From Clostridia bacterium (lineage in GTDB: Bacteria; Bacillota; Clostridia; Oscillospirales; Acutalibacteraceae), in assembly GCA_017621885.1 (NCBI GenBank), contig JAGASD010000057.1:1-32276 (forward strand): a stretch of DNA of 32,276 nucleotides. The letters run 5' to 3'. The notes under the pieces are model-generated. The model ran no database searches and was not told the origin of the DNA. It saw nothing but the letters and a program-made list of their open reading frames with translations. This document shows, piece by piece, positions 20,107 to 32,276 of the stretch (its first letter is position 1; each line of letters begins with the position of its first letter). Made by a program: the position numbers and the translations under genes.

Positions 20107-20142
20107 ATAAAAAATCGTAGTCCTGCCTGATGGCAAGACTAC
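20107..20142 (-). terminator. Terminator of the recombinase gene
   Basis: GTAGTC..GCC (20117-20127) pairs with GGC..GACTAC (20132-20142), followed by ATTTTTTATATA on the minus strand. The stop codon TAG lies inside the stem. Confidence 0.75.
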
Positions 20143-21608
20143 AATTTTGGTGGAGTATCAATATATGTATCCGAAACGCTAATCAATCTGTCGAAGGGGA
20201 CAGTTTCTGTCCCCTCACGATAGTTGAAAACTAATTCTATTTTATCTTTATAAACTACGACTGAATTGAGAAAGGTATTTACCAAGCATTTGCGTGCTTC
20301 AAGGCTATCTATATTGAGTTTTCGAAGTTCGTAGAGCCAATATCTTATACATTCTCTTGGCAGAAGAGGTTTGCTGAGTTTTTCTTTTGCGATAAGAATT
20401 TCCAGTTCTTCTTTACTCTTTTCCAATTTATCCAAACGCTCTTTTGTGGACGAATTGTAAATGCCGTCCTGAATGGCGTTAAGCAGATTTTCAATGCCAC
20501 GTTTAATATCACTCAATTGTTTCTTCAAAGCAGGAAGAGCCACATTTTCTCTCGCCTGTTCTTTCATAGCAATATCAATAATTGCTTCTACAGTATCATC
20601 ATCCATAATGGTTTTTATAATGTGCGTAAGAACAAGATTTTCAAGAACATCTTTCTTGATGCCTTTTCGACTTTTGCATCCCTTTTTGCGTTTTGCACTT
20701 ATACACTTATAATAACGATACTGTTGATTATTTCTTCCTCTGCCGATTTCACCGACCATAATTGAGCCGCAGTCACCGCAGAACAGTTTTGTTGTGAGCA
20801 GATAATCGTCCGTTGCCTTATGACTTGCAGGAGCCTTTTTGTTTTTCTCCAAGGTTTTCTGTACTCTTTCAAATAAATCAGTGGGAATTATCTGAGGAAT
20901 ACCGCATTCGGTAACATGATTACTGTATCTGTATTCACCTAAATATTTACGATTCTGAAGCATTCTCTGTGTTGCACTTAGATTCAATTTATGTCCTCGG
21001 GCAGTACGCAGTCCCATTTCATTAACAATTTCCGTAACCTCTTTCATTGTCTTTCCGGAAACATAAAGTTTGAATGCTTCTAAAACAATAGGTGCAGCCT
21101 GCGGATCTATTTCATACATTTGCTCAGAATTTATAAGATAACCTATGGTTCTTGTACCACCATTGAATTTGCATTTAAGAGCATTTTCTGTAAGGCCTCT
21201 TGTTATCTTTTCACTTAACTCCGCTGAATAATATTCAGCCATACCCTCAAGCATGGATTCAAGAAGTATTCCTTCTGCTCCGCGGGATATTGTTTCAGTT
21301 ACAGAAACGACCTTGACTGAATTTTTGTTAAGCACATTTTTGTAATGAGCAGAGTCATAACGGTTACGAGCAAAACGGTCAAGCTTCCACACCAGGATTA
21401 TATCAAACAATTTGCGTGAGCTGTCATGAATCATTTTTTGAAATTGAGGTCTGTTATCTGTTTTTGCGGATAGTGCTCTGTCAATATACGAATTTATAAT
21501 CTTAATACCGTTTCTTTCGGCATAAGATTTACACTCTCTGAGCTGACCATCAATAGATTCTTCTTTTTGATTATCACTTGAATATCGTGCATAAATTACT
21601 GCTGTCAT
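20139..21608 (-). CDS. Large serine recombinase (site-specific integrase)
   Basis: A 489-residue serine integrase, probably catalysing excision and integration of the element. The resolvase domain (1-150) has YARYSSDNQ with the likely nucleophile S10 and the arginine-rich active-site segment KLDRFARNR (about 75-83). A recombinase domain follows (about 155-265). A zinc ribbon uses C277, C280, C302 and C311. A coiled coil lies at about 355-410. ATG 21608 has AAGGAGGAAT upstream. It is the last gene of the minus-strand mobilization run, at the element's left end. The family resembles recombinases of mobilizable elements in Clostridia. Confidence 0.93.
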   Translation of the reverse strand: MTAVIYARYSSDNQKEESIDGQLRECKSYAERNGIKIINSYIDRALSAKTDNRPQFQKMIHDSSRKLFDIILVWKLDRFARNRYDSAHYKNVLNKNSVKVVSVTETISRGAEGILLESMLEGMAEYYSAELSEKITRGLTENALKCKFNGGTRTIGYLINSEQMYEIDPQAAPIVLEAFKLYVSGKTMKEVTEIVNEMGLRTARGHKLNLSATQRMLQNRKYLGEYRYSNHVTECGIPQIIPTDLFERVQKTLEKNKKAPASHKATDDYLLTTKLFCGDCGSIMVGEIGRGRNNQQYRYYKCISAKRKKGCKSRKGIKKDVLENLVLTHIIKTIMDDDTVEAIIDIAMKEQARENVALPALKKQLSDIKRGIENLLNAIQDGIYNSSTKERLDKLEKSKEELEILIAKEKLSKPLLPRECIRYWLYELRKLNIDSLEARKCLVNTFLNSVVVYKDKIELVFNYREGTETVPFDRLISVSDTYIDTPPKL

Positions 21609-21631
21609 AATTTTTATTCCTCCTTCATTTT

Positions 21632-21658
21632 TAGGGGTGCAATTTTTTTACACCCCTA
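21632..21658. other. Intercistronic hairpin between the small gene and recombinase gene
   Basis: TAGGGGTG (21632-21639) pairs with CACCCCTA (21651-21658) around an AT-rich loop. There is no T-tract after the stem. It could be an RNA-processing or partial-attenuation hairpin. Confidence 0.5.
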
Positions 21659-21666
21659 TTATCTGA

Positions 21667-21918
21667 TTAAACATCTTCTCCTGTCAAAGGTGCAGTATCT
21701 GCATTTTCAGGCTTTTGCTGTCTGCAGTTAATTACATTTTCCTCTTTAGAGAAAAACTCTGTAATATCATACCAAACACAACGCACGAAATTTTCAAGGG
21801 CATAGGTATCTATAGGCAGTGTACATTCTGCTTTTGTGCCGCTTAATTTTTTTATAACATCTGCTTTTATGATTTCATAATACTCTTTTATTTTCTTCGC
21901 TAACTCTATAATTTTAAT
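21667..21918 (-). CDS. Small protein of the mobilization operon with ATT start
   Basis: An 83-residue frame with normal codon use and no in-frame ATG, and only internal CTG or GTG. A perfect AAGGAGG (21933-21927) is eight bases upstream of ATT at 21918-21916, and a TAA closes the frame just before. Initiation at ATT, or a recently mutated ATG, is inferred. The protein starts IKIIELAKKIKEYYEIIKAD. It has a conserved-looking middle LPIDTYALENFVRCVWYDI and an acidic tail. It resembles the small hypothetical proteins usually found between relaxase and recombinase; function unknown. Confidence 0.62.
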   Translation of the reverse strand: MKIIELAKKIKEYYEIIKADVIKKLSGTKAECTLPIDTYALENFVRCVWYDITEFFSKEENVINCRQQKPENADTAPLTGEDV

Positions 21919-21931
21919 AATTTATTCCTCC

Positions 21932-23251
21932 TTATCTCACATCCCGTGAATAGACACGGTTTCTGTTTTGTGTTTTATTTTTCTGCTGTTGTTCGATTTC
22001 AAGAATTTGGTCTATCTTGTTTTCTATCTCAGACTCTGATTTTTCAATTCTTTCGCAGGTGTTAATATCCTTACGAAGAACTTTCAACCTTTCGGAAAAT
22101 AGACTAATGGTATCTTTGATTTCTGCGATTTCCTTTTCATCACCCTTGCGAACAGCAGATTTTAATTTGTTGCGGCAGATTCTTCGGGCTTCTGTTACCT
22201 CTGCCATTTCGTTTATACATTCCTGTTTGAAAGACTGCAACTGCTCATCAGTTTCAATATCGTTATGACACAAAAGATTCTGTTGCTCAATCAATCGGTC
22301 AAGCTTTATAATTTCTCTTTGCAGATATTTTTCGATATAGTAGTTTTCTTTAGGACGGCTTTTCACCGTCTGAACCACTGTAACAAAATGAACATAAACC
22401 TCTTTGTAGTTTCTTTCAAAGTCGGTGAGATAATCTTTCCACTCGTCCTGATGGGGTAAATCAATCCTGTAATGTCTCCAATCAGCATAAAGTTTGTCAG
22501 ATATTCTTTCAAAAGAATATTCATCACCGAGGTCACATAACCAAATCGGTCTTTTGAATGACGGATGATTAACCGTTGTATGAGGTTTGGTGAAATCAAA
22601 TCTGTAACCGAGCTTTTGCATTTCATAAAGAAAACCTCTCTCACTACCAGCACGAAGAATGCACTCATCAATATCTTTTTTGAGTGTTGTGAATTTGTTA
22701 TACTCACCGTCACGCTCTGCGACATACTGAGGATAGCATTGATGCTTTGACGGTTTCGGATTTTCAATAACCGATAAACCTTGTTCTCTGCAAAGCCTGT
22801 CTGAAACATTTCGCATTTTATTCAGAAAAGATTTGTTATCATTAAACTTTTTACCGTCAACAAATGAAACACTGTTCACAACAATATGGCAATGAAGATT
22901 ATCTGTATTCTTATGAAGTGCAACTATTGTTTCAAATCTGTCACCGAATAATTCTTCTGCAAGTTTGCAACCGATTTCAAAAACCTGTTCATTCGTACCC
23001 TCGTTATCATCAAAAGATTGAATAATGTGATAACCGACATTGCCTGAATTTTTATTAAACAAATCTTTTGTTTCCTGCATCTGTGCTTTTGCAAATTCGG
23101 GAATGCAGTTTATACCTCGTACAAAAACTACTTCTTCGTTCTTCATACCGTCATTAAAAATTTTATCGGCAGTAGTTTTTGAAGGATTCATTGCATAATC
23201 AATCAGCTTTGAAAGTCCCGTTTTTAACTTTTTAATTTTTGTTATCGCTAT
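21932..23251 (-). CDS. Relaxase / mobilization nuclease with ATA start
   Basis: A conjugative relaxase (MobA/VirD2-type, PF03432 family) that nicks oriT and leads single-stranded DNA transfer. Read from ATA 23251 it is 439 residues. It begins (M)AITKIKKLKTGLSKLIDYAMNPSK, with catalytic Tyr19 in the DYAMNP motif. The metal-binding motif is HKNTDNLHCH (H113, H120, H122), preceded by GYHIIQSF. The first ATG (23191) would delete the catalytic tyrosine. GGAGG (23265-23261) lies nine bases upstream of the ATA and overlaps the mobC stop, so translation is coupled. The C-terminal part is a long charged coiled coil. Confidence 0.85.
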   Translation of the reverse strand: MAITKIKKLKTGLSKLIDYAMNPSKTTADKIFNDGMKNEEVVFVRGINCIPEFAKAQMQETKDLFNKNSGNVGYHIIQSFDDNEGTNEQVFEIGCKLAEELFGDRFETIVALHKNTDNLHCHIVVNSVSFVDGKKFNDNKSFLNKMRNVSDRLCREQGLSVIENPKPSKHQCYPQYVAERDGEYNKFTTLKKDIDECILRAGSERGFLYEMQKLGYRFDFTKPHTTVNHPSFKRPIWLCDLGDEYSFERISDKLYADWRHYRIDLPHQDEWKDYLTDFERNYKEVYVHFVTVVQTVKSRPKENYYIEKYLQREIIKLDRLIEQQNLLCHNDIETDEQLQSFKQECINEMAEVTEARRICRNKLKSAVRKGDEKEIAEIKDTISLFSERLKVLRKDINTCERIEKSESEIENKIDQILEIEQQQKNKTQNRNRVYSRDVR

Positions 23252-23257
23252 TTTTTA

Positions 23258-23578
23258 TCACCTCCCCATATCAAAATTTTCGAGTAATTGCTTTTCACAA
23301 TCACGCAGTTCTGTAATTGCATTTCTGATTTCTTTATCGGTTACAAAAGATTTTGAGTTTAATGCTCTTGCAATTTGGTTAAGATTGTTACCTATACGGC
23401 GAAGTTCCGGAACAACAGAACGGATTTCTTTGGGCGGAAATTTTATGCATTGGTACAAAATCAACAATCTTATTAGCTTTGAAACGCTGACGTTATATTC
23501 TTTTGTTTGACTTAAAAGCATTTCATTTTCTTCATCATCGAGATAAAAAGCGTATCGGTGTTGTCTTTTTCTCGGCAA
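23258..23578 (-). CDS. mobC: MobC-like relaxosome accessory protein
   Basis: A 106-residue small basic DNA-binding protein. The N-terminal part MPRKRQHRYAFYLDDEENEM suggests ribbon-helix-helix binding. The C-terminal part LRRIGNNLNQIARALNS is the signature of the MobC bacterial mobilization family, which opens oriT for the relaxase. The start is TTG 23578 with AAGGAG eight bases upstream; an upstream ATG would read through the oriT-like palindrome. It overlaps the relaxase ribosome binding site by its stop codon. Order and partners fit a standard mobC-relaxase module. Confidence 0.88.
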   Translation of the reverse strand: MPRKRQHRYAFYLDDEENEMLLSQTKEYNVSVSKLIRLLILYQCIKFPPKEIRSVVPELRRIGNNLNQIARALNSKSFVTDKEIRNAITELRDCEKQLLENFDMGR

Positions 23579-23603
23579 GTTTTTCACTCCTTTCTTCTGC
23601 TTT

Positions 23604-23653
23604 CGAGCGGATTTGTTGCAACAAATCCAATGCTCGCAAAGACGATACCACAC
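23604..23653. other. Probable origin of transfer (oriT)
   Basis: A perfect 20-bp palindrome (23609-23628, GGATTTGTTG / CAACAAATCC) is nested in CGAGC (23604-23608) and GCTCG (23632-23636). It is followed by GCAAAGACGATACCACAC (23636-23653). It sits in the 78 bases between parB and mobC, the usual place of oriT in such modules. The nick position cannot be told from sequence alone. Confidence 0.65.
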
Positions 23654-23656
23654 TTT

Positions 23657-24511
23657 TTATCGCTCCCACTGTCGTTGCTTCTGAAGCACCATTGCATACC
23701 GTGCAAGAGCTTTTTCCGTTATCTCTTCCATCTTTTTCGGCGGCATATCTTTCTTAAAATACTTCTTAAAAGTTTCAACAGGAATTTTTACATACTCTTT
23801 CTGATTAGCTTTTTGCTCCTGCATAATTTCAAAGATGGTATCCATAGTGAGTTTTTTCTCATCACTTAACTTGTGCATACGCTGAGCCTGAGAGAGTGAC
23901 GGAGTGCAATCTTCACTTTCAATAGTTTCAATTAAGTTGCACTGTTCCTCTTCAGTTAAATATGAAAGTTCAACTGCAGGTATAAAAGAAATTCTTTTTT
24001 CATCCACCATATCAAGAAGTGCAGGTTGCAAATTGTTCAATCGGATATATCTTTGAATCTGCATTCGGGAATCAGGCATTGTTTCTGCAAGTTTTTCATC
24101 ACTGCGGAACTTCGTCCCAACTTGTGACGAAGTTAAATCAGTTCTTGCACCTTGCTTTTTAATTGCATCGTGTTTCATTTTATACGCGCGGGCTTTTTCA
24201 CTCGGCAATATCTTTTCTCGGCTGAGATTACAGTCAACAAAATTTATTACCGCTTCTTCTTTTGAAAGCTCTCTTACATAAACGGGAACGACATCAAGAT
24301 TCAACTCTTTTGCAATCTGCCATCGTCTGTGACCTGAGATGATTTCGTAACCGTTATCTGACTTATTAACGATGAGTGGTGTGATTATTCCGAACTCTTT
24401 AACGCTGTCACGAAGCTCATCGTATTCACTTTTATTAACACTCTGAAACGGATTGTTTTCAAACGGATGAAGTAAATCGAGATTTAGATATTCAATTTTT
24501 TCGTTTACCAT
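23657..24511 (-). CDS. ParB/Spo0J-like partition protein
   Basis: A 284-residue ParB-family DNA-binding protein. The N-terminal ParB/sulfiredoxin-like domain (about 5-100) has PLIVNK, GHRRWQIAKEL and NLSREKILPSEKARA, the latter two fitting the CTP-binding motifs. A helix-turn-helix region (about 145-175) has MPDSRMQIQRYIRLNNL. A basic tail follows. On mobile elements ParB proteins help maintenance or regulate transfer; no ParA is seen in the window. ATG 24511 has AAAGGA upstream. It is the first gene of the parB-mobC-relaxase-small gene-recombinase run. Confidence 0.9.
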   Translation of the reverse strand: MVNEKIEYLNLDLLHPFENNPFQSVNKSEYDELRDSVKEFGIITPLIVNKSDNGYEIISGHRRWQIAKELNLDVVPVYVRELSKEEAVINFVDCNLSREKILPSEKARAYKMKHDAIKKQGARTDLTSSQVGTKFRSDEKLAETMPDSRMQIQRYIRLNNLQPALLDMVDEKRISFIPAVELSYLTEEEQCNLIETIESEDCTPSLSQAQRMHKLSDEKKLTMDTIFEIMQEQKANQKEYVKIPVETFKKYFKKDMPPKKMEEITEKALARYAMVLQKQRQWER

Positions 24512-24664
24512 TAAATTCTTTTTCCTTTCTTTGAAAATTTTTGTTTGAGTTTTTGCAACATAAAATGATGTTTTGTTTTTTGCTAAAGCATTGTTTCACC
24601 TTCCTTCGTTTTAAAATTTTTGTGATAAAAAATCCTTGTGTTTAAACGAGGATATGTATTCAGG

Positions 24665-24694
24665 TTGATTTGTTTGGTGGGTATGTGGTATAAT
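24665..24694 (+). promoter_or_regulatory. Promoter of the peptidase E-GNAT cargo pair
   Basis: TTGATT (24665-24670), an 18-base spacer and a perfect TATAAT (24689-24694) lie 31 bases before the ATG. Confidence 0.62.
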
Positions 24695-24725
24695 CTTTTC
24701 ATCAATATGAAAGCGTGAAATTAAA

Positions 24726-25514
24726 ATGAGCAGAAAAATAGTTGCTATTGGTGGCGGTGAAAACGGAAGAAAGCGTTCTGACGGTACACGCTACCCATAT
24801 GAACTTTCTAATCAAGATAAAGAAATAATCAGACTTACAGGTAAAGAACATCCAAACTTTCTTTTAATCGCTCACGCACAACCATTGGAAAGACAAGAAA
24901 GCTACTTTCAGGTAATGGTTGACATTTACGAAAAAATGTATGGCTGTTCCTGTAAAGATTTAAAAAGCAATGAATTAACTAATACCGAACTTGTACAAAG
25001 TCTTATTGACTGGGCGGACATCATATTTGAAGGTGGTGGAAACACACTTGATATGATTAAACTTTGGAAAGAAACAGGTTTTGACAAAACCTTAAAACAG
25101 GCTTGGCTTGACGGTAAAGTTATGTGCGGTGTTTCAGCAGGTGCTAACTGTTGGTTTAGTGAATGCTCTTCCGACTCACTTAAAATTAAGTATGGTAATG
25201 ACCAACCGCTAATTGGTGTTGAGTGCTTGGGATTTGTTGACGGATTGTTTGTGCCTCATTGTGATGAAAAAGATCGTCTTGATAATGTAAAAGAGTTATT
25301 GAAAACAAGTGAACACGTTGGATTATCAATGTCCAACTGCACAGCACTTGAGATTGTTGATGATGAATACAGACTTATTACAAGTGATGCTTCTTACCAC
25401 AATATTGAAGCGTTTGGTTTGAAATCATATTGGAAAGACGGAGAATATATCAAAGAATATATTGATACATCTGTTGATTTTAAGCCTTTAAAAAATTTGT
25501 TATCAAAAGAGTGA
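24726..25514 (+). CDS. Peptidase E-like (S51, class I glutaminase-like) protein
   Basis: A 262-residue protein of the peptidase E / cyanophycinase-type S51 family. It shows an N-terminal strand KIVAIGGGENG, the oxyanion region DIIFEGGGNTLDM, and the nucleophile elbow CGVSAGANCWF with the likely catalytic serine. FVPHCDEKDR supplies a candidate histidine. Members hydrolyse Asp-X dipeptides or related bonds in the cytoplasm. The ribosome binding site is weak. The GNAT gene follows after ten bases with its site overlapping the stop, forming a two-gene cargo operon on the strand opposite to the mobilization genes. Confidence 0.88.
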   Translation: MSRKIVAIGGGENGRKRSDGTRYPYELSNQDKEIIRLTGKEHPNFLLIAHAQPLERQESYFQVMVDIYEKMYGCSCKDLKSNELTNTELVQSLIDWADIIFEGGGNTLDMIKLWKETGFDKTLKQAWLDGKVMCGVSAGANCWFSECSSDSLKIKYGNDQPLIGVECLGFVDGLFVPHCDEKDRLDNVKELLKTSEHVGLSMSNCTALEIVDDEYRLITSDASYHNIEAFGLKSYWKDGEYIKEYIDTSVDFKPLKNLLSKE

Positions 25515-25524
25515 GGATTTCTCA

Positions 25525-26112
25525 ATGAACACAATCACAATAAAACCTTTATCATCCGAAATAAACAAAGACTATCTTGATTTTTTCGATACTCGTGCAT
25601 TTACTGACGGCAATCCCAACGGTCCTTGTTATTGTACATCCCCGAATCAGGATGAAGAAACCATTAAAAAGATGGTTAAAAAATTCAAAATTTTTGGTGT
25701 TAAGAAAACGCTCCGTAAGTATGCAGTAAAAATGCTTAATGAAAATAAAATTCAAGGTTATTTAGCTTTTGACGGAGATGTATCTATCGGATGGTGTAAT
25801 GCTGCAGATATTGAAAGTTATTCAGGCTTTATTCCTCAATTTGCAAAAGAAAATACTTGTGGAAAGACTGTTTCTATCGTGTGTTTTGAAATTGCCCCTG
25901 AATACAGAGGTAAAGGAATTGCATCAGCTTTTATCGAAAGAGTATGTAGCGATGCAAAGGAAAAGGGATACGTTGCAGTTGAAGGTTATGCCAAACTTTC
26001 CGAACAAAGAGATGATTTTGATTTCCAAGGTCCCGTCCAACTTTACAAAAAAGCCGGTTTTGTTGAAATTGCAAGAGAAAACGGACAAGCTATTATGAGA
26101 AAATTCTTATAA
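25525..26112 (+). CDS. GNAT-family N-acetyltransferase
   Basis: A 195-residue acetyltransferase. The acetyl-CoA motif A is visible in IVCFEIAPEYRGKGIASAFIERV (Y-R-G-K-G-I-A), and the C-terminal YKKAGFVEIAR strand-helix is typical. The N-terminal part has an unusual GPCYCTS cysteine pair. Substrate unknown; small-molecule or antibiotic modification is possible but not supported. ATG 25525 has GAGGA eight bases upstream. It is the second gene of a cargo operon ended by a terminator at 26126. Confidence 0.9.
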   Translation: MNTITIKPLSSEINKDYLDFFDTRAFTDGNPNGPCYCTSPNQDEETIKKMVKKFKIFGVKKTLRKYAVKMLNENKIQGYLAFDGDVSIGWCNAADIESYSGFIPQFAKENTCGKTVSIVCFEIAPEYRGKGIASAFIERVCSDAKEKGYVAVEGYAKLSEQRDDFDFQGPVQLYKKAGFVEIARENGQAIMRKFL

Positions 26113-26125
26113 AATAGTTCTATTT

Positions 26126-26156
26126 GCTCTCACATCTGTGGGAGCAGTTTCTTTTT
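26126..26156 (+). terminator. Terminator of the cargo operon
   Basis: GCTCTCAC (26126-26133) pairs with GTGGGAGC (26138-26145, one G-U pair), followed by TTTCTTTTT. Confidence 0.85.
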
Positions 26157-26491
26157 ATCCAAACCGCTGTATAATGAAAACAGTGAAATATTAGTGAAAA
26201 TTCATTCCTTTGAAAAAAATTATTTTTTCAACAGAGGCATTTTTGAGTACATTTTGCCCTTAGTACTACGGACAGAATGCACCGATTTTTAATGGAAATT
26301 TTGCTGACAGGGTGCTGTTCGTTTTACAAATTTCTATCGGCTGATTTGCAAAATTTGGATTTTTACGAGCCGAAGAAAGAATTCACTTCAGCTCTTTAGC
26401 TTTGCACATTCTAAATAGCTATTGCAAACACTTTACTAACCGAAGAAGAAATGCGTTGTTTCATCAGCCTTTCGAATTCAGCCAATACGCC
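26157..26491. other. Gene-free stretch between cargo and the repA remnant
   Basis: No supported gene on either strand. A 9-bp AT-rich hairpin (TTGAAAAAA / TTTTTTCAA, 26210-26231) is the only clear structure. It may terminate minus-strand transcripts coming from the repA remnant. Confidence 0.55.
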
Positions 26492-26962
26492 TTATATACT
26501 TAAAGTTACTGCTAACTTAATTAAAGAATATTTTCTCTCTTCTCGGTCGGTATATATCTCAGTCTTACTCTACTCAGTCTTATTACTTGCGACTTTTACG
26601 TAGACCTGATGCGTGTTTTCGGTATATCTAAAACATACAGCTTTGCAGGTTTGCCTTTACCCTGATATTTACGACGGAGCAGATTGTGTTTTTCAAGCTC
26701 ACGCTGTAGCCTTGTTGCTTTGTCATGTCCACAACCAAGCACTTCGCTTGTTTCAGCAATGGTATAGAAGATAAACACTTCTCCGTTTTTATCACACCAT
26801 CCGTTTATTGCAGATAACTGCATTCTGTCGAGCATTAAGCCATAAAGCAGTTTTGCTTCTGCTGATAAATCCTTGTACTCCTCCGTAAATAACATCTTCG
26901 GCATTTTGAAAAAGATTTTGCTTTGAGGTTCTTCGTAAACGATATCTATGTTCAGATTTCAT
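26492..26962 (-). pseudogene. RepA_N-type replication initiator, decayed
   Basis: The core (26596-26904) encodes the RepA N-terminal domain of Firmicutes elements: FFKMPKMLFTEEYKDLSAEA, LLYGLMLDRMQLSAINGW, VFIFYTIAETSEVLGCG and KGKPAKLYVLD. The start is damaged. The ATG after the AGGAG site (26962) is one base out of frame with the domain, and only a CTG (26955) is in frame. The end is also damaged. After the stop at 26596 a shifted frame continues as VYVKVASNKTE-stop-SKTEIYTDRE to 26492, like the low-complexity linker of intact RepA. The gene is most likely inactive. Confidence 0.68.
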
Positions 26963-27007
26963 CACACTCCTTTTTATTTTCGGTAGCGGCTACCAAAAAT
27001 TGTTTGA

Positions 27008-27445
27008 TTATCTTTCGCCCATCCGACGTAAGTCGGTTACGGCTTGTCCTGCGATATTGATTAGTTCTGTATTATTGGGTATTTGGTTTGATTCTTTCAA
27101 CGTAATTCGTATTTTACGTATGGATTTCTCTATCTCTCGGCAAGTACAACCATTTTTCAGGGCGGCAATAGAAAGATTGGCAATATATACACAGTGGCTC
27201 GGCTCGTGATGGTCTTGAACTAACATACGTCCGATTTGTTCAAGAATTCCGTCTTTTGATTTTATTGTCCATGTGGTTTCGTCAGAACACCAAAGTAATG
27301 ACTTGTCGGGAATTTCGGCAGCCGCTTCCGAAATCAACTGAGCAGCTTTGTTCACATACATTGAGTTAACGGCTTGTCTGCGGCTACATCTGCCATTTGG
27401 TACATCAAGCCTCGGTCTGCCACGACCTCGTTTCTTTTCTTCCAT
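27008..27445 (-). CDS. Conserved-looking hypothetical protein of the element
   Basis: A 145-residue protein, family not recognised. The N-terminus MEEKKRGRGRPRLDVPNG is strongly basic with a GRGRPR AT-hook-like motif, which suggests DNA contact. The middle has LLWCSDETTWTIKSKDG, and the rest is helical. ATG 27445 has a perfect AAAGGAGG seven bases upstream. It is the first gene after a 520-base leader and precedes the repA remnant by 45 bases, so a role in element replication or control is inferred from position only. Confidence 0.7.
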   Translation of the reverse strand: MEEKKRGRGRPRLDVPNGRCSRRQAVNSMYVNKAAQLISEAAAEIPDKSLLWCSDETTWTIKSKDGILEQIGRMLVQDHHEPSHCVYIANLSIAALKNGCTCREIEKSIRKIRITLKESNQIPNNTELINIAGQAVTDLRRMGER

Positions 27446-28072: not shown

Positions 28073-28101
28073 TTGAATTAACGGGCATAAAGTGATATAC
28101 T
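28073..28101 (+). promoter_or_regulatory. Promoter of the WYL regulator gene
   Basis: TTGAAT (28073-28078), a 17-base spacer and TATACT (28096-28101) lie 50 bases before the ATG. Confidence 0.72.
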
Positions 28102-28121
28102 TTATTTTGTATAAGTATATC
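28094..28121. promoter_or_regulatory. Dyad operator overlapping the WYL promoter
   Basis: A perfect 9-bp inverted repeat, GATATACTT (28094-28102) and AAGTATATC (28113-28121), with a 10-base spacer overlaps the -10 and the transcription start. Autorepression by the adjacent WYL protein is a natural reading (inference). Confidence 0.65.
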
Positions 28122-28151: not shown

Positions 28152-29135
28152 ATGGATAACGATTCAAAGTTAAGACCTTTATATCTTGCTAAAATTTTAT
28201 ATGAGCAGACCGACGAGGAGCATTATCTCACAACCGTTCAGCTTATTAATATTCTTGAAGAAAAATACGGTATCAGTGCTCACCGTCAGACGATAAAATC
28301 TGAAATTGAGCTTCTTCGCAAGTTCGGTATAGAAATAGAGGAAGTAAAATCCGTTCAGAACAGATACAACATCTGCTCCCGTGATTTTGAAAACTCCGAG
28401 CTGAAGCTTCTTATAGACGCTGTTGAATCGGCAAAATTCATTACCGCCGGTAAGAGTAAAGAGCTTGTTGCAAAGCTCAGCTCTCTTGCAGGAAATTACG
28501 GGGCTGAAAAACTGAAGCGTAATGTCTGCTGTGAAGAACGAATCAAGTCAGATAATGAAAGAATTTATATTATTGTCGATACCATAAACGAGGCTATCAA
28601 TGAGGGTAAAAAGATTTCATTCCCGTACTTTCAGTACAATATAAAAAAGGAGCATCAGCTAAAACACAACGGTAATCCTTATGTTCTTTCACCCCTGCAC
28701 CTTGTATGGAACGGTGATTTCTATTATTTAGTCGGTGTTGCAGATGACGGCAATATCAGAAATTTCCGTGTTGACCGCATTGCAAAATGTCCGACAATTC
28801 TTGAAGAAAATTCAATACAAGCTCCCGAAGATTTCAATATTGATGATTACATAAACACAACCTTCCGTATGTTCAATGCAGAACATACAGATGTTGAGCT
28901 TCTTTGCGATAATGACGTTATTGATTCGATAATTGACCGCTTTGGTGAGAATATCGAAATAACGGAAGCCGCTACCGAAAATTTCAGAATAACGGTAAAT
29001 GTCGCCACCAGCCATATATTTTATAGTTGGATATTCGGCTTTGGCGGTAAGGTTAGAATACTTGGTCCTGAGTCGATTAAGGATGAATACATGGCGATGC
29101 TGGATAGAGCAAATGTATCAACAAATACATTATAA
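28152..29135 (+). CDS. WYL-domain transcriptional regulator
   Basis: A 327-residue regulator. An N-terminal winged helix-turn-helix (about 5-65) has LTTVQLINILEEKYGISAHRQTIKSEIE. A WYL domain (about 140-215) has PYVLSPLHLVWNGDFYYLVGV and RNFRVDRIAKC. A C-terminal extension (about 230-320) resembles the dimerization part of CapW/BrxR-type proteins. Such regulators repress phage-defence operons until a ligand is sensed. AAAAAGGAG lies seven bases before ATG 28152. A perfect dyad covers its own promoter, and a membrane protein, a TIR protein and a methyltransferase follow. Confidence 0.9.
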   Translation: MDNDSKLRPLYLAKILYEQTDEEHYLTTVQLINILEEKYGISAHRQTIKSEIELLRKFGIEIEEVKSVQNRYNICSRDFENSELKLLIDAVESAKFITAGKSKELVAKLSSLAGNYGAEKLKRNVCCEERIKSDNERIYIIVDTINEAINEGKKISFPYFQYNIKKEHQLKHNGNPYVLSPLHLVWNGDFYYLVGVADDGNIRNFRVDRIAKCPTILEENSIQAPEDFNIDDYINTTFRMFNAEHTDVELLCDNDVIDSIIDRFGENIEITEAATENFRITVNVATSHIFYSWIFGFGGKVRILGPESIKDEYMAMLDRANVSTNTL

Positions 29136-29260
29136 AAATACATCAACAGACAGAATCAACGACCACAAGGTTTATACAAAAGCTATTTACCGTAGTTACT
29201 TATGATGAGCATATAATAATCGCCCATAAGACTTATTATAAAAAAGACAGGAGAACAGCT

Positions 29261-29695
29261 ATGAAACCAAATGAAAAGCATCTTGAATTTTTACAAAATA
29301 ATATTGCAAGAATGAATCAGTGTTCATTTCAAATGAAAGGATGGGCCATCACATTAGCTTCTGCATTAATTGCAGTTTTTGTTTCAACTATCTCAAAAGA
29401 AAATCCTGGGAACAAAATTTATATTTGTGCTGCGATTGCTTCAACCATTTTATTCTGGTGCTTAGATTCACTGTATTTGTCCAAAGAAAGAAAATTCATT
29501 GGTGTTTATAATGATTTGATCGGTGTTACAAATGGCAAAAATCATAAACCAGTTAAAATCAAGGTTTATGAAATTCCAATTAAAAAATACAAGGAGTGGA
29601 AATACTCCTTTATTCGTGCAATGCTCTTGCCATCGGAAATCATATTATATGGTGTAATAATTATTGGTTTAATAGTGTTAAGTCAAGCTGTATAA
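29261..29695 (+). CDS. Three-helix membrane protein paired with TIR protein (SLATT-like)
   Basis: A 144-residue membrane protein. A short N-terminal helix (KHLEFLQNNIARMNQCSFQ) leads into hydrophobic segments at about 27-45 and 51-70, separated by a short hinge. A charged cytoplasmic stretch (SKERKFIGVYNDLIG) and a loop follow, then a third segment at about 122-142. The two-helix hairpin followed by a helical cytoplasmic part recalls SLATT-type defence effectors, but I cannot prove membership. AGGAG precedes ATG 29261. The TIR gene begins 19 bases after its stop, so they are co-transcribed. A pore-forming effector role is inferred. Confidence 0.78.
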   Translation: MKPNEKHLEFLQNNIARMNQCSFQMKGWAITLASALIAVFVSTISKENPGNKIYICAAIASTILFWCLDSLYLSKERKFIGVYNDLIGVTNGKNHKPVKIKVYEIPIKKYKEWKYSFIRAMLLPSEIILYGVIIIGLIVLSQAV

Positions 29696-29714
29696 AAAGA
29701 TAAGGAGCTAAAGC

Positions 29715-30506
29715 ATGTTTGCAAAATTCAACTATAATCCATCAAACGCATTTTATTGTTCCGAATTAAATCAACATTTCACACTTGGAAACAAGATATA
29801 TTCCGAACATAAAAAAGAAGTTCAAGATTGTTTGTCAGAATATATTACTGAAGATGGAATAATAAATGGAACAGCCTTGAAAGAACATTGGTTTTCTGTT
29901 TCCAAGAAAGATATATTTATATCTCATTCCCATAAGGACATAAACAAAGTTATAGCTTTTTCTGGTTGGCTTAAAGAGAATTTTGGGTTAGAATCGTTTA
30001 TTGACTCGTGCTCATGGGGATATTGTGACGATTTGCTTAACAAGATTGACAAAAAATACTGTTACAAACCCAAAACAAGAACATACGATTATAAATTGAG
30101 AAACTATACAACTAGCCATGTTCATATGATGTTATCGACGGCTTTAACTGAAATGATTAATAATACAGAGTGTATTATTTTTTTTAATACACCCAATTCA
30201 ATAATTATGTCTGATGAGTTAAAGAAAATTAACAAAAAAGAGAAAACGATATCACCATGGATTTATCATGAACTATCGATATCTACAATGCTTCAAATTT
30301 CACTTCCTAAAAGACGAAGTTTCTTGCAGGAACGATATGATCAAGGGTATTCATTTTCACATTCAGATTTAAAAATTGGATATGATGTTAGTGAGCAAAT
30401 AAAAAGCATGATTATGCTCTCAGACGAAATATTGAAAAAGTGGAAAGATGAACACGATAATAAAAAGCACGCATTAGATGAATTATATAAACTTTTGGGC
30501 GTCTAA
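29715..30506 (+). CDS. TIR-domain protein
   Basis: A 263-residue soluble protein. Residues about 65-195 form a TIR-like domain: the first strand KDIFISHSHKD (65-75), the helix and second strand GLESFIDS, the IIFFNTP strand and SPWIYHELS, whose E186 is the candidate NADase glutamate. The N-terminal 60 residues and C-terminal 65 residues are family-specific, the latter helical. Bacterial TIR domains of defence systems degrade NAD or make cyclic ADP-ribose-like signals. AAGGAG lies seven bases upstream of ATG 29715. It lies between the membrane protein and mod genes in a tight operon, which suggests a signal-effector couple (inference). Confidence 0.85.
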   Translation: MFAKFNYNPSNAFYCSELNQHFTLGNKIYSEHKKEVQDCLSEYITEDGIINGTALKEHWFSVSKKDIFISHSHKDINKVIAFSGWLKENFGLESFIDSCSWGYCDDLLNKIDKKYCYKPKTRTYDYKLRNYTTSHVHMMLSTALTEMINNTECIIFFNTPNSIIMSDELKKINKKEKTISPWIYHELSISTMLQISLPKRRSFLQERYDQGYSFSHSDLKIGYDVSEQIKSMIMLSDEILKKWKDEHDNKKHALDELYKLLGV

Positions 30507-30524
30507 TTTTAAGGAGAAAGCAAT

Positions 30525-32276
30525 ATGAGTACAAACATCTCAAAACAAAAGCGTGAGGATTTACTCGCCAAAATTAAAGAAATACGCACCTTTATTTCTG
30601 CTGCACCGCAGGATAAAAATACAGGTAATCTTTTGTCGTACCTTTCTGAGCTAGAAAAAGACGTTAACGGGAAGAAATACGGTCTTGTTTTTGAAGAGCA
30701 CCGTGAGGAAATTGATGAGGTTCTTGATACCCATACTCCTGTTCTCACGGAAGATGAAGACCTTTTTATCAATAACGACGGTCAAATGAATTTTCTTATC
30801 GAGGGCGATAATCTCGCTTCGTTAAAGCTTCTTGAAAAGACACATAAAGGAAAGATTGACCTTATTTATATCGATCCGCCTTACAATACAATGAGTACTG
30901 GGTTTACTTATTCTGATACATTGGTGGATAACGGAGATAATTACAGACATTCAAAATGGTCTTCTTTTATGAAAAACCGTTTGGAAATTGCTCGTTCACT
31001 TCTTTCACCAACAGGATGTATTTTTATCTCTATTGATGATAATGAATTTGCAGCTTTAAAATTAGTGTGTGATGAGGTTTTTGGTTGGCAGAATTTTGTT
31101 ACGTCTTGTATGTGGCAAAAAATACACAGCATCAAAAATGATGCTAAGTACATTTCTGTAAATCACGATTATATTTTCGTCTATGCAAAAAACATTGATT
31201 TGCTTAAATTCAATCTTCTTGATCGCACAGATGAAATGAATAGCCGATATAAAAATCCCGACAACGATCCAAGAGGTCCTTGGCAATCAGGTGACTTGGT
31301 TGCAAATGAAATTCGAGTTAATGGAAATTATGATGTAATTGGTCCAACTGGAAAAGTTTTTAATGTTCCTGAGGGTAAACACTGGGTGTATTCAGAGGAA
31401 AATATGCGTACTTTGATTGCAGAGAACAGAATTTGGTTTGGTAAGGACGGAACATCATTTCCGAGAAAGAAACGTTACTTAACAGAGGTTCAGCAAGGTC
31501 GCACACCAGATTCTTGGTGGACAAGTGCTGAAGTTGGGCATAACCAAGAGGGTGCTCGTGAATTAAAATCAGTCTTTGACGGTAGAATTGTCTTTACTAA
31601 CCCAAAACCAACACGTTTGATTGAACGTATTATTAAAATGGGTTCAAAAAGCGATAGCATAATTCTTGATTTCTTTGCAGGAAGTGGCACGACTGGACAT
31701 GCCATTCTAAAATACAATTATAACAACGAAGGTAGTAACCGCCGCTTTATCCTTTGCACCAACAACGAAAATAATATCTGTCGTGATGTTACTTATGAAC
31801 GCATAAAGCGTGTTATTGACAAAGAAGGATATGAAGCAAGTCTAAAATACTACAAAGTGGATTATATCCCCATTTGTGAGCGTATGTATTATGAATATGC
31901 CGACGAGCTTCTTCGACACATCAGAGAACTTGTAGAACTCGAAAATGGTGTTAATTTCACTAACAATGCGGAAATAGCCATTGTTCTTACCGAAGAAGAA
32001 CTTGAAGATTTCATCGCAAACATTGATGATTTCTCAAAGTGCAAAAAGCTCTATATGGGACATGACCTCTTACCTACCGAAGAACAGGAACAGGCTATAT
32101 CCTCACGCAAAATAGAGGTCAATATAATTCCTGATTATTTGCTTATGTGTGATAAAGAAGCAATAGAAGTGCAAAAAATTTTGCCGTTCCTATCCGACAC
32201 TTGGCCATTGTGTCGGATAGGTCGGGCGGTTATTCGGGCAAGTCAATCTTGCCGACAAAGCTGTAATAAATCTCAA
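30525..32276 (+). CDS. mod: Type III restriction-modification methyltransferase Mod (partial)
   Basis: An open frame from ATG 30525 (AAGGAG eight bases upstream) runs past the window end, 584 codons seen. It is a beta-class DNA methyltransferase. The catalytic motif IV DPPYNT lies at 117-122 and the AdoMet motif I LDFFAGSGTTGHA at about 381-393, in the order IV then I, with a long target-recognition region between. The sequence fits type III Mod up to KIEVNIIPDY (about residue 540). After that it reads LLMCDKEAIEVQKILPF and then translates a 12-bp inverted repeat and cysteine-rich sequence, unlike the usual short Mod ending. A Res partner is not seen and may lie beyond the window. Confidence 0.88.
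   Translation, partial: MSTNISKQKREDLLAKIKEIRTFISAAPQDKNTGNLLSYLSELEKDVNGKKYGLVFEEHREEIDEVLDTHTPVLTEDEDLFINNDGQMNFLIEGDNLASLKLLEKTHKGKIDLIYIDPPYNTMSTGFTYSDTLVDNGDNYRHSKWSSFMKNRLEIARSLLSPTGCIFISIDDNEFAALKLVCDEVFGWQNFVTSCMWQKIHSIKNDAKYISVNHDYIFVYAKNIDLLKFNLLDRTDEMNSRYKNPDNDPRGPWQSGDLVANEIRVNGNYDVIGPTGKVFNVPEGKHWVYSEENMRTLIAENRIWFGKDGTSFPRKKRYLTEVQQGRTPDSWWTSAEVGHNQEGARELKSVFDGRIVFTNPKPTRLIERIIKMGSKSDSIILDFFAGSGTTGHAILKYNYNNEGSNRRFILCTNNENNICRDVTYERIKRVIDKEGYEASLKYYKVDYIPICERMYYEYADELLRHIRELVELENGVNFTNNAEIAIVLTEEELEDFIANIDDFSKCKKLYMGHDLLPTEEQEQAISSRKIEVNIIPDYLLMCDKEAIEVQKILPFLSDTWPLCRIGRAVIRASQSCRQSCNKSQ
32189..32221. repeat. Perfect 12-bp inverted repeat near the end of mod
   Basis: CCTATCCGACAC (32189-32200) and GTGTCGGATAGG (32210-32221) flank a nine-base loop. 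A second hairpin (CGGGCAAG-TCAAT-CTTGCCG) follows at about 32236-32254. There is no T-tract. It could be a repeat insertion or an element end. Confidence 0.72.

Follow-up and report, generated by a model that had tools for sequence, protein, structure and literature searches.

A small three-helix membrane protein paired with a ThsB-type TIR protein in a Clostridia contig: a probable Thoeris-like module

The locus and its two central proteins

The window analysed here is the entire contig C47 (JAGASD010000057.1; 32,276 bases) of a Clostridia bacterium genome, whose assembly comprises 2.63 Mb in 64 contigs. Toward its right end, a gene for a small membrane protein was found directly upstream of a gene for a TIR protein, a pair that recurred in many other loci and is probably a Thoeris-like defence module. 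The reading frames bore out the four-gene order and positions on the + strand given in a preliminary description of this DNA, and the following features were identified.

28094..28121, no strand assigned: candidate operator; two 9-bp arms, GATATACTT and AAGTATATC, form a perfect inverted repeat around a 10-nt spacer, and the repeat overlaps a promoter-like -10 box 5' of the WYL gene
28152..29135, + strand: WYL-WCX transcriptional regulator, 327 aa (Pfam WYL, 1.8e-11; WCX, 5.7e-09)
29261..29695, + strand: small three-helix membrane protein, 144 aa, PDC-M50A family (PADLOC PDLC04686, 2.1e-30)
29715..30506, + strand: TIR protein, 263 aa, ThsB-type (PDLC00430 clade; PADLOC ThsB, 8.3e-74)
30525..32276, + strand: type III DNA methyltransferase Mod, incomplete (PADLOC MTase_III, 3.4e-116)

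The intergenic gaps were 125 nt between the WYL and membrane-protein genes, 19 nt between the membrane-protein and TIR genes, and 18 nt between the TIR gene and mod. The Mod frame (584 aa) was still open at the end of the window, and since the contig stops inside Mod, Res is not visible.

Neither Pfam nor NCBIfam gave a match for the membrane protein at E ≤ 1. Four PADLOC models named PDC-M50A matched it (best 2.1e-30), and all 29 aligned members of its family match PDC-M50A. Hydrophobic segments were located at about residues 26-46, 53-73, and 116-144, and the AlphaFold2 model (mean pLDDT 87.3) contained helices at 3-42, 52-87, and 124-143, the first two forming a long helical hairpin that is followed by the final helix. 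Residues 71-120 included 12 Lys/Arg vs 4 Asp/Glu. According to the positive-inside rule, positively charged stretches face the cytosol, and the N-terminus and the loop 71-120 were therefore placed there. R17, K26, F65, and E76 were invariant in the 29 aligned proteins, and Q12, I15, M18, S22, W28, T31, D69, L73, and Y83 were nearly so; in a second set of 35 proteins, R17 alone was strictly invariant, and L8, Q12, K26, F65, L73, and E76 were conserved at 90% or more. In the model, R17, K26, D69, and E76 sit where both long helices would exit the membrane, and we therefore guess that this region may be a ligand or partner site.

The label "SLATT-type" in the preliminary description was not supported: none of the 29 family members matched a Pfam SLATT family at E ≤ 1, and hhalign comparisons with a SLATT_5 protein and a SLATT_1 protein, a weak test on single sequences, each gave a probability below 1%. 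A weak PADLOC RTasSLATT match (E 0.021) was obtained for one of the 29, the window protein. No relatedness of the family to the TM-macro ThsA of another locus (L029) was detectable by profile comparison, and a structure search with the model of the membrane protein returned no match. At L002 and L011 (4527-5981 in both), the membrane gene is situated in frame and without a stop behind a 340-residue protein of unrecognised kind, forming a 484-aa frame on both contigs.

The Pfam TIR_2 match of the window TIR protein was below the cut-off (E 0.01), and PDC-M50B was not matched at E ≤ 1. Its predicted structure resembled ThsB and other TIR structures; among solved proteins, the TIR profile reached E ≤ 0.01 with SpbK alone (E 0.0084). 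Residue 186, the Glu of SPWIYHE, was invariant in two alignments (22/22 and 26/26 TIR proteins), which agrees with the earlier proposal that E186 is a candidate catalytic residue, and it is regarded here as the putative catalytic Glu. An active-site Tyr has been described as marking enzymes that make the type II signal (PMC11204291).

Recurrence of the pair and exchange of effectors

The pair or its parts were present in 95 other loci (numbered L), some of which overlap or duplicate one another and some of which have flanks of 1.5 kb only. Counts were made after clustering at 90% identity, with a neighbour defined as a gene within 3 kb. Out of 44 TIR clusters including the window, 35 had a membrane gene nearby; the others had a macro ThsA (2), a SIR2-STALD ThsA (1), a patatin (2), or none of these (4, two of them at contig ends). 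Conversely, a TIR gene was near in 53 of 62 membrane clusters and absent in nine, and in 7 of the 62 one membrane gene was near both TIR types, i.e., the window type and the PF08937 ThsB type. The preliminary description had proposed a two-gene TIR/membrane module and regarded a lack of conserved co-occurrence as a ground for abandoning it. Counting revealed co-occurrence from either side (35/44 TIR clusters; 26/35 clusters of loci found via the membrane protein alone), and together with 30 of 39 clusters of loci found via TIR alone and the ThsB-like TIR model, these figures supported the module. The membrane-TIR pairing is real and widespread.

The counts omitted a weak TIR fragment (L007) and weak membrane matches (L042, L025, and a second piece in L031). 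L048 was counted as "none", an annotated TIR-domain gene convergent to its membrane gene not being accepted by the TIR profiles. The TIR of L041, annotated as 227 aa, matched in two pieces, and probably frameshifted, was used unaltered. A 308-aa protein of L024, once taken for a member of the membrane family, was a product of a drifted profile and was dropped by a later one.

The pair was distributed over genomes, viral contigs, and plasmids. Among ten genome loci (tblastn), the membrane gene adjoined the TIR gene in seven and followed a second TIR gene in L009; no membrane gene was visible in L007, which starts 93 bp before the match, or in L010, where a contig end lies close to a partial TIR. 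The TIR led to 23 viral-contig loci, and in 18 of them the membrane gene was adjacent or, in L052 and L053, past a second TIR. The remaining five were L065 with a SLOG-patatin-like neighbour, L069 with two macro-ThsA homologues, the contig ends L060 and L067, and L056, which has no candidate. Among 20 viral-contig loci found via the membrane protein, 18 had a TIR beside the membrane gene; it was of the PF08937 ThsB type in 11 and of the window type in 7 (6 on contigs already found via TIR). In plasmid searches, the membrane protein was present in 84 records and the TIR in 120, several plasmids being in both lists; the 14 TIR and 8 membrane-protein records examined, which were picked for different organisms, had hosts including Klebsiella, Escherichia, Lactobacillaceae, Priestia, Vibrio, and the archaeon Halorhabdus. 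A near match to one plasmid version of the pair was detected in 10 of 5,426 complete E. coli genomes, plasmid-borne in every case. Further, three Vibrio phage records carried the TIR, and in PQ189363.1 (L123:1347-2635) the membrane gene was directly 3' of it, beside a gene noted as integrase. In the annotation of this record, the TIR is noted as Thoeris ThsB and the gene after it as "hypothetical"; the latter matches the membrane profile at 4.4e-42. The phage is placed in Vinavirales, which are non-tailed phages. Defence genes generally cluster, and the two genes could in principle be coincidental neighbours within a defence island, but the two families are found close together on plasmids, in phages, and in the genomes of several phyla, and the counts contradict coincidence, which we consider next to impossible.

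Some plasmid loci showed additional features. A Vibrio chagasii plasmid carried two membrane-family and three TIR genes in a row (L043:921-5132), and an 8.2-kb Salmonella plasmid carrying blaCTX-M-5 also held a short membrane-gene remnant and a TIR (L042:3612-4717). In Lactiplantibacillus plasmids, a family of 159-166 aa of unrecognised kind was encoded directly after the TIR (L037:4571-5071, L049:3370-3849, L040:4610-5107), with the membrane gene next in two of the three.

Divergence of the TIR and membrane proteins was correlated (Mantel r 0.61; the short membrane proteins of L031 and L042 were left out). Correlated divergence and tight gene adjacency would be expected if both proteins formed one membrane-bound toxic complex acting with no diffusible signal. 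This explanation appears improbable, since co-inheritance also accounts for correlated divergence, gene order is variable and gaps can exceed 500 bp with a gene in between (L009, L030, L037, L049, L052, L053), and the TIR family also adjoins soluble SIR2-STALD effectors. In addition, one membrane gene was accompanied by two or more TIRs in L009, L030, L052, L066, and L086, among others, and in L086 two ThsB-type TIRs flank a single membrane gene.

The same TIR family was found with known Thoeris effectors, beside a SIR2-STALD ThsA in L041 (6.2e-162) and a macro ThsA in L029 (3.8e-74). On a tree of 43 TIR proteins (L010 left out), the neighbour label required seven changes: four were to other effectors (macro 2, patatin 1, SIR2 1) and three to "none", one of the latter being a contig end. 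The TIR of L029 and a membrane-paired TIR were sisters (96/82, starred support), that of L041 grouped with a membrane-paired TIR (88/94, not starred), and both patatin-neighbour TIRs fell inside an otherwise membrane-paired set (100/96); the TIR of L069 was on a long branch and its placement is unsure. When the labels were shuffled, the mean was 7.9 changes, and 11 of 200 shuffles needed as few as 7. The neighbour label is thus only weakly clustered, which fits the expectation of exchanged effectors.

Clusters of ThsB-type TIRs around a patatin-like phospholipase were observed at L034:626-7100, L035:681-7361, and L065:3488-8517. The phospholipase of L065 has an N-terminal part that is SLOG-like by eye; that of L034 and L035 is annotated as a CBASS phospholipase, with no cyclase annotated in the stretch. 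Such phospholipases are possibly another Thoeris-like effector type.

The WYL regulator and the restriction-modification genes

No homologue of the WYL gene was present in any of the 95 related loci (tblastn, E ≤ 1e-6), by which the gene was ruled out as a constant part of the module. The WYL identity given in the preliminary description was borne out. Related WYL genes were found in 67 of 99 genomes, the source genome included, and among the loci listed their neighbours, judged by eye, were for the most part housekeeping or unannotated genes. The closest relative (63%) precedes genes for a NERD-UvrD helicase and a 1393-aa protein with no PADLOC match (L122:5440-9734), and the helicase neighbour fits a regulator of changing defence genes. 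CapW/BrxR regulators combine WYL and WCX domains and stand upstream of defence genes; the window regulator likewise has both domains and stands 5' of presumed defence genes. BrxR or CapW models were not among the PADLOC and NCBIfam matches of the WYL protein, the presence of such models in these libraries being unchecked. The palindrome at 28094-28121 could be a WYL operator, although this is a weak suggestion from sequence: a 9-bp palindrome of such a kind occurred in 138 of 5,000 simulated sequences and in 12 of 316 window tiles, and no palindrome of at least 7 bp was present in the 250 bp upstream of the 63% relative.

Homologues of the type III Mod were detected in three of the 95 other loci (L002, L088, L095), of which only L002 has a pair of the window's TIR type. 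There, the order is membrane-TIR-Mod-Res, with Res recognised by REase_III (1.4e-18), and identity to the window is 85% for the TIR, 72-74% for the membrane protein, and 55% for Mod. The pair and the restriction-modification genes therefore occur together in at least two genomes, as an option, and Mod is a neighbour rather than a part of the TIR module. The module had been described as nested in a type III restriction-modification operon; Mod is indeed adjacent, but nesting is not supported in this window, where the pair lies upstream of mod, and in the related loci Mod is only an occasional neighbour. The pair might instead be a back-up or suicide arm wired to Mod/Res under WYL control. The membrane-TIR-Mod order common to the window and L002 would accord with this, as would the methylases or restriction-modification-like genes that adjoin some solo membrane genes (L093-L097), but the scarcity of Mod and the absence of WYL in the other loci make such an arrangement very improbable.

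Elsewhere in the source genome, a second Mod-like methyltransferase, 39% identical, was encoded at G000:C13:2713-3915. Left of the module, at window positions 20139-27445, genes resembling those for serine recombinases and relaxases were recognised by eye, and ParB-like and RepA_N genes by Pfam, which suggests a mobile element.

Proposed function and comparison with known systems

We propose that the pair is a Thoeris-like abortive-infection module in which the membrane protein substitutes for ThsA, a reading to which we assign a probability of about 0.7. It is directly supported by the gene pairing, the conserved putative catalytic residue, the TIR-like model, the predicted membrane helices, and the occurrence of the TIR family with known ThsA. 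The membrane protein is probably the effector, because its TIR family is used with known Thoeris effectors and because one membrane gene can accompany several TIRs, as one effector does in Thoeris. The inferred steps are synthesis of the signal, its binding, oligomerisation, damage to the membrane, and defence against phages itself, which would proceed as follows. The ThsB-type TIR would sense a phage component and assemble, and the assembled TIR, acting through E186, would turn NAD+ into a messenger derived from ADP-ribose. The cytosolic helical part of the membrane protein (R17, K26, D69, E76) would detect either the messenger or the TIR assembly, whereupon the membrane protein would oligomerise and its three helices would depolarise the inner membrane or make it permeable ahead of phage release.

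The roles could also be reversed, with the membrane protein as a sensor or anchor responding to envelope or injection stress and the TIR as an NAD-depleting NADase effector, as in SpbK. TIR proteins can act as direct NADase effectors (PMC12847820), SpbK was the sole solved protein reached by the TIR profile, as noted above, and the membrane protein has no recognised ligand-binding domain. Nevertheless, the TIR family occurs with both known ThsA types, where the TIR is the signal maker, and the membrane protein pairs with two ThsB clades, one copy being able to serve several TIRs. A shared effector fits this arrangement better than a sensor, and the reversed assignment is considered unlikely.

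Several observations weigh against a function of the membrane protein tied to the TIR. The membrane family occurred in 12 (13 places) of 398 sampled genomes from the phylum, two of the matches (L024, L025) being weak and probably false, while the window-TIR profile was found in only two, the source genome and one weak match (E 3.6e-4). No TIR was present in the short flanks of six membrane loci (L015-L020), and five of them remained TIR-free when widened to about 7-8 kb per side (L093-L097, corresponding to L015-L018 and L020; one side of L094 covers 0.7 kb only). These solo membrane genes adjoin an HmaB/DUF1156-like methylase, a 1104-aa protein, or restriction-modification-like genes, the last judged by eye or from weak PADLOC matches. 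Likewise, no TIR relative was detected in the 98 other genomes of the kinship sample. Since five widened loci still showed no TIR, the membrane family probably has at least one TIR-free life.

A further proposal is that a Thoeris-like module of this kind represents a new Thoeris type, in which a bare three-helix effector with no recognised ligand-binding domain reads an ADP-ribose-derived signal or TIR assembly directly through the cytosolic ends of its helices (R17, K26, D69, E76) and has been repeatedly swapped with SIR2-STALD, macro, and probably patatin effectors. This is tentative, and we place it slightly short of even odds. Should it hold, the final step of Thoeris signalling would be a minimal membrane protein amenable to dissection residue by residue, a simple case of a small nucleotide or a TIR assembly opening or breaking a membrane. 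Because several effectors are used by one TIR family, the naturally exchanged effectors should also be exchangeable in the laboratory. Moreover, tools requiring a known ThsA would leave such TIRs orphan, for example that of Vibrio phage PQ189363.1.

SLATT effectors have two transmembrane helices with a helical extension; the model of the window protein shows a long hairpin of helices and one further helix. In several Firmicute phages, TIR genes typically adjoin 2TM SLATT genes, whose products were predicted in 2022 to be membrane effectors regulated by ADP-ribose derivatives (PMC9503650). The scheme proposed here resembles these pairs in that a TIR-made ADP-ribose derivative would act through a small membrane protein controlling permeability, and differs in that the window membrane family has no SLATT match. 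A tblastn search of a phage collection with three membrane-family queries returned Vibrio phages or nothing, and none of the phages named in PMC9503650, whose presence in that collection is unchecked. A three-gene TIR plus transmembrane system of the P2-like phage AC1, which blocks phages in E. coli C (PMC9122126), also combines a TIR with membrane proteins; it has three genes and is likened here by description, not by sequence.

The PADLOC candidate PDC-M50 shares with the window a PDC-M50A membrane protein beside a TIR, but the window TIR belongs to another ThsB clade (PDLC00430) rather than PDC-M50B, the PF08937 ThsB model matched by the TIRs of L023 and L026. Our literature search found no paper naming PDC-M50 and no tested function for it. 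The name "Thoeris type III" is used in PMC12390725, which cites other papers for counter-defence genes, and Thoeris goes unmentioned in PMC10889362. The literature found neither tests nor describes the window family pair; "Thoeris type III" and a 12-system E. coli TIR study could contain a relative. The earlier statement that the pairing is not a standard Thoeris layout therefore stands for this family pair, which is undescribed in the literature found, and not in the sense of something wholly new, given PDC-M50A/B in PADLOC and the published TIR-SLATT pairs.

Compared with Thoeris types I and II, the window has a ThsB-type TIR with a putative catalytic Glu, and its TIR family stands beside both ThsA types (L041, L029, L069). 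The published layout of one effector with one or several TIRs (PMC11204291, PMC12578639) also applies, with one TIR in the window and several in relatives. In contrast, the window pair has no adjacent SIR2-STALD or TM-macro ThsA, and in its proposed effector, a three-helix protein of 144 aa, none of the macro, SLOG, and SIR2 domains was recognised. The source genome gave no SIR2_2 or STALD match, the STALD control being silent as well and macro ThsA not having been searched there. In Thoeris type IV, a TIR messenger activates a partner from the same operon, as proposed here, but the partner is a caspase-like protease (PMC12847820) instead of a membrane protein. The general idea of a TIR with a membrane effector is thus already in print; what is new is the combination of clades and the evidence of effector exchange in a pair that is real, recurrent, and probably Thoeris-like.

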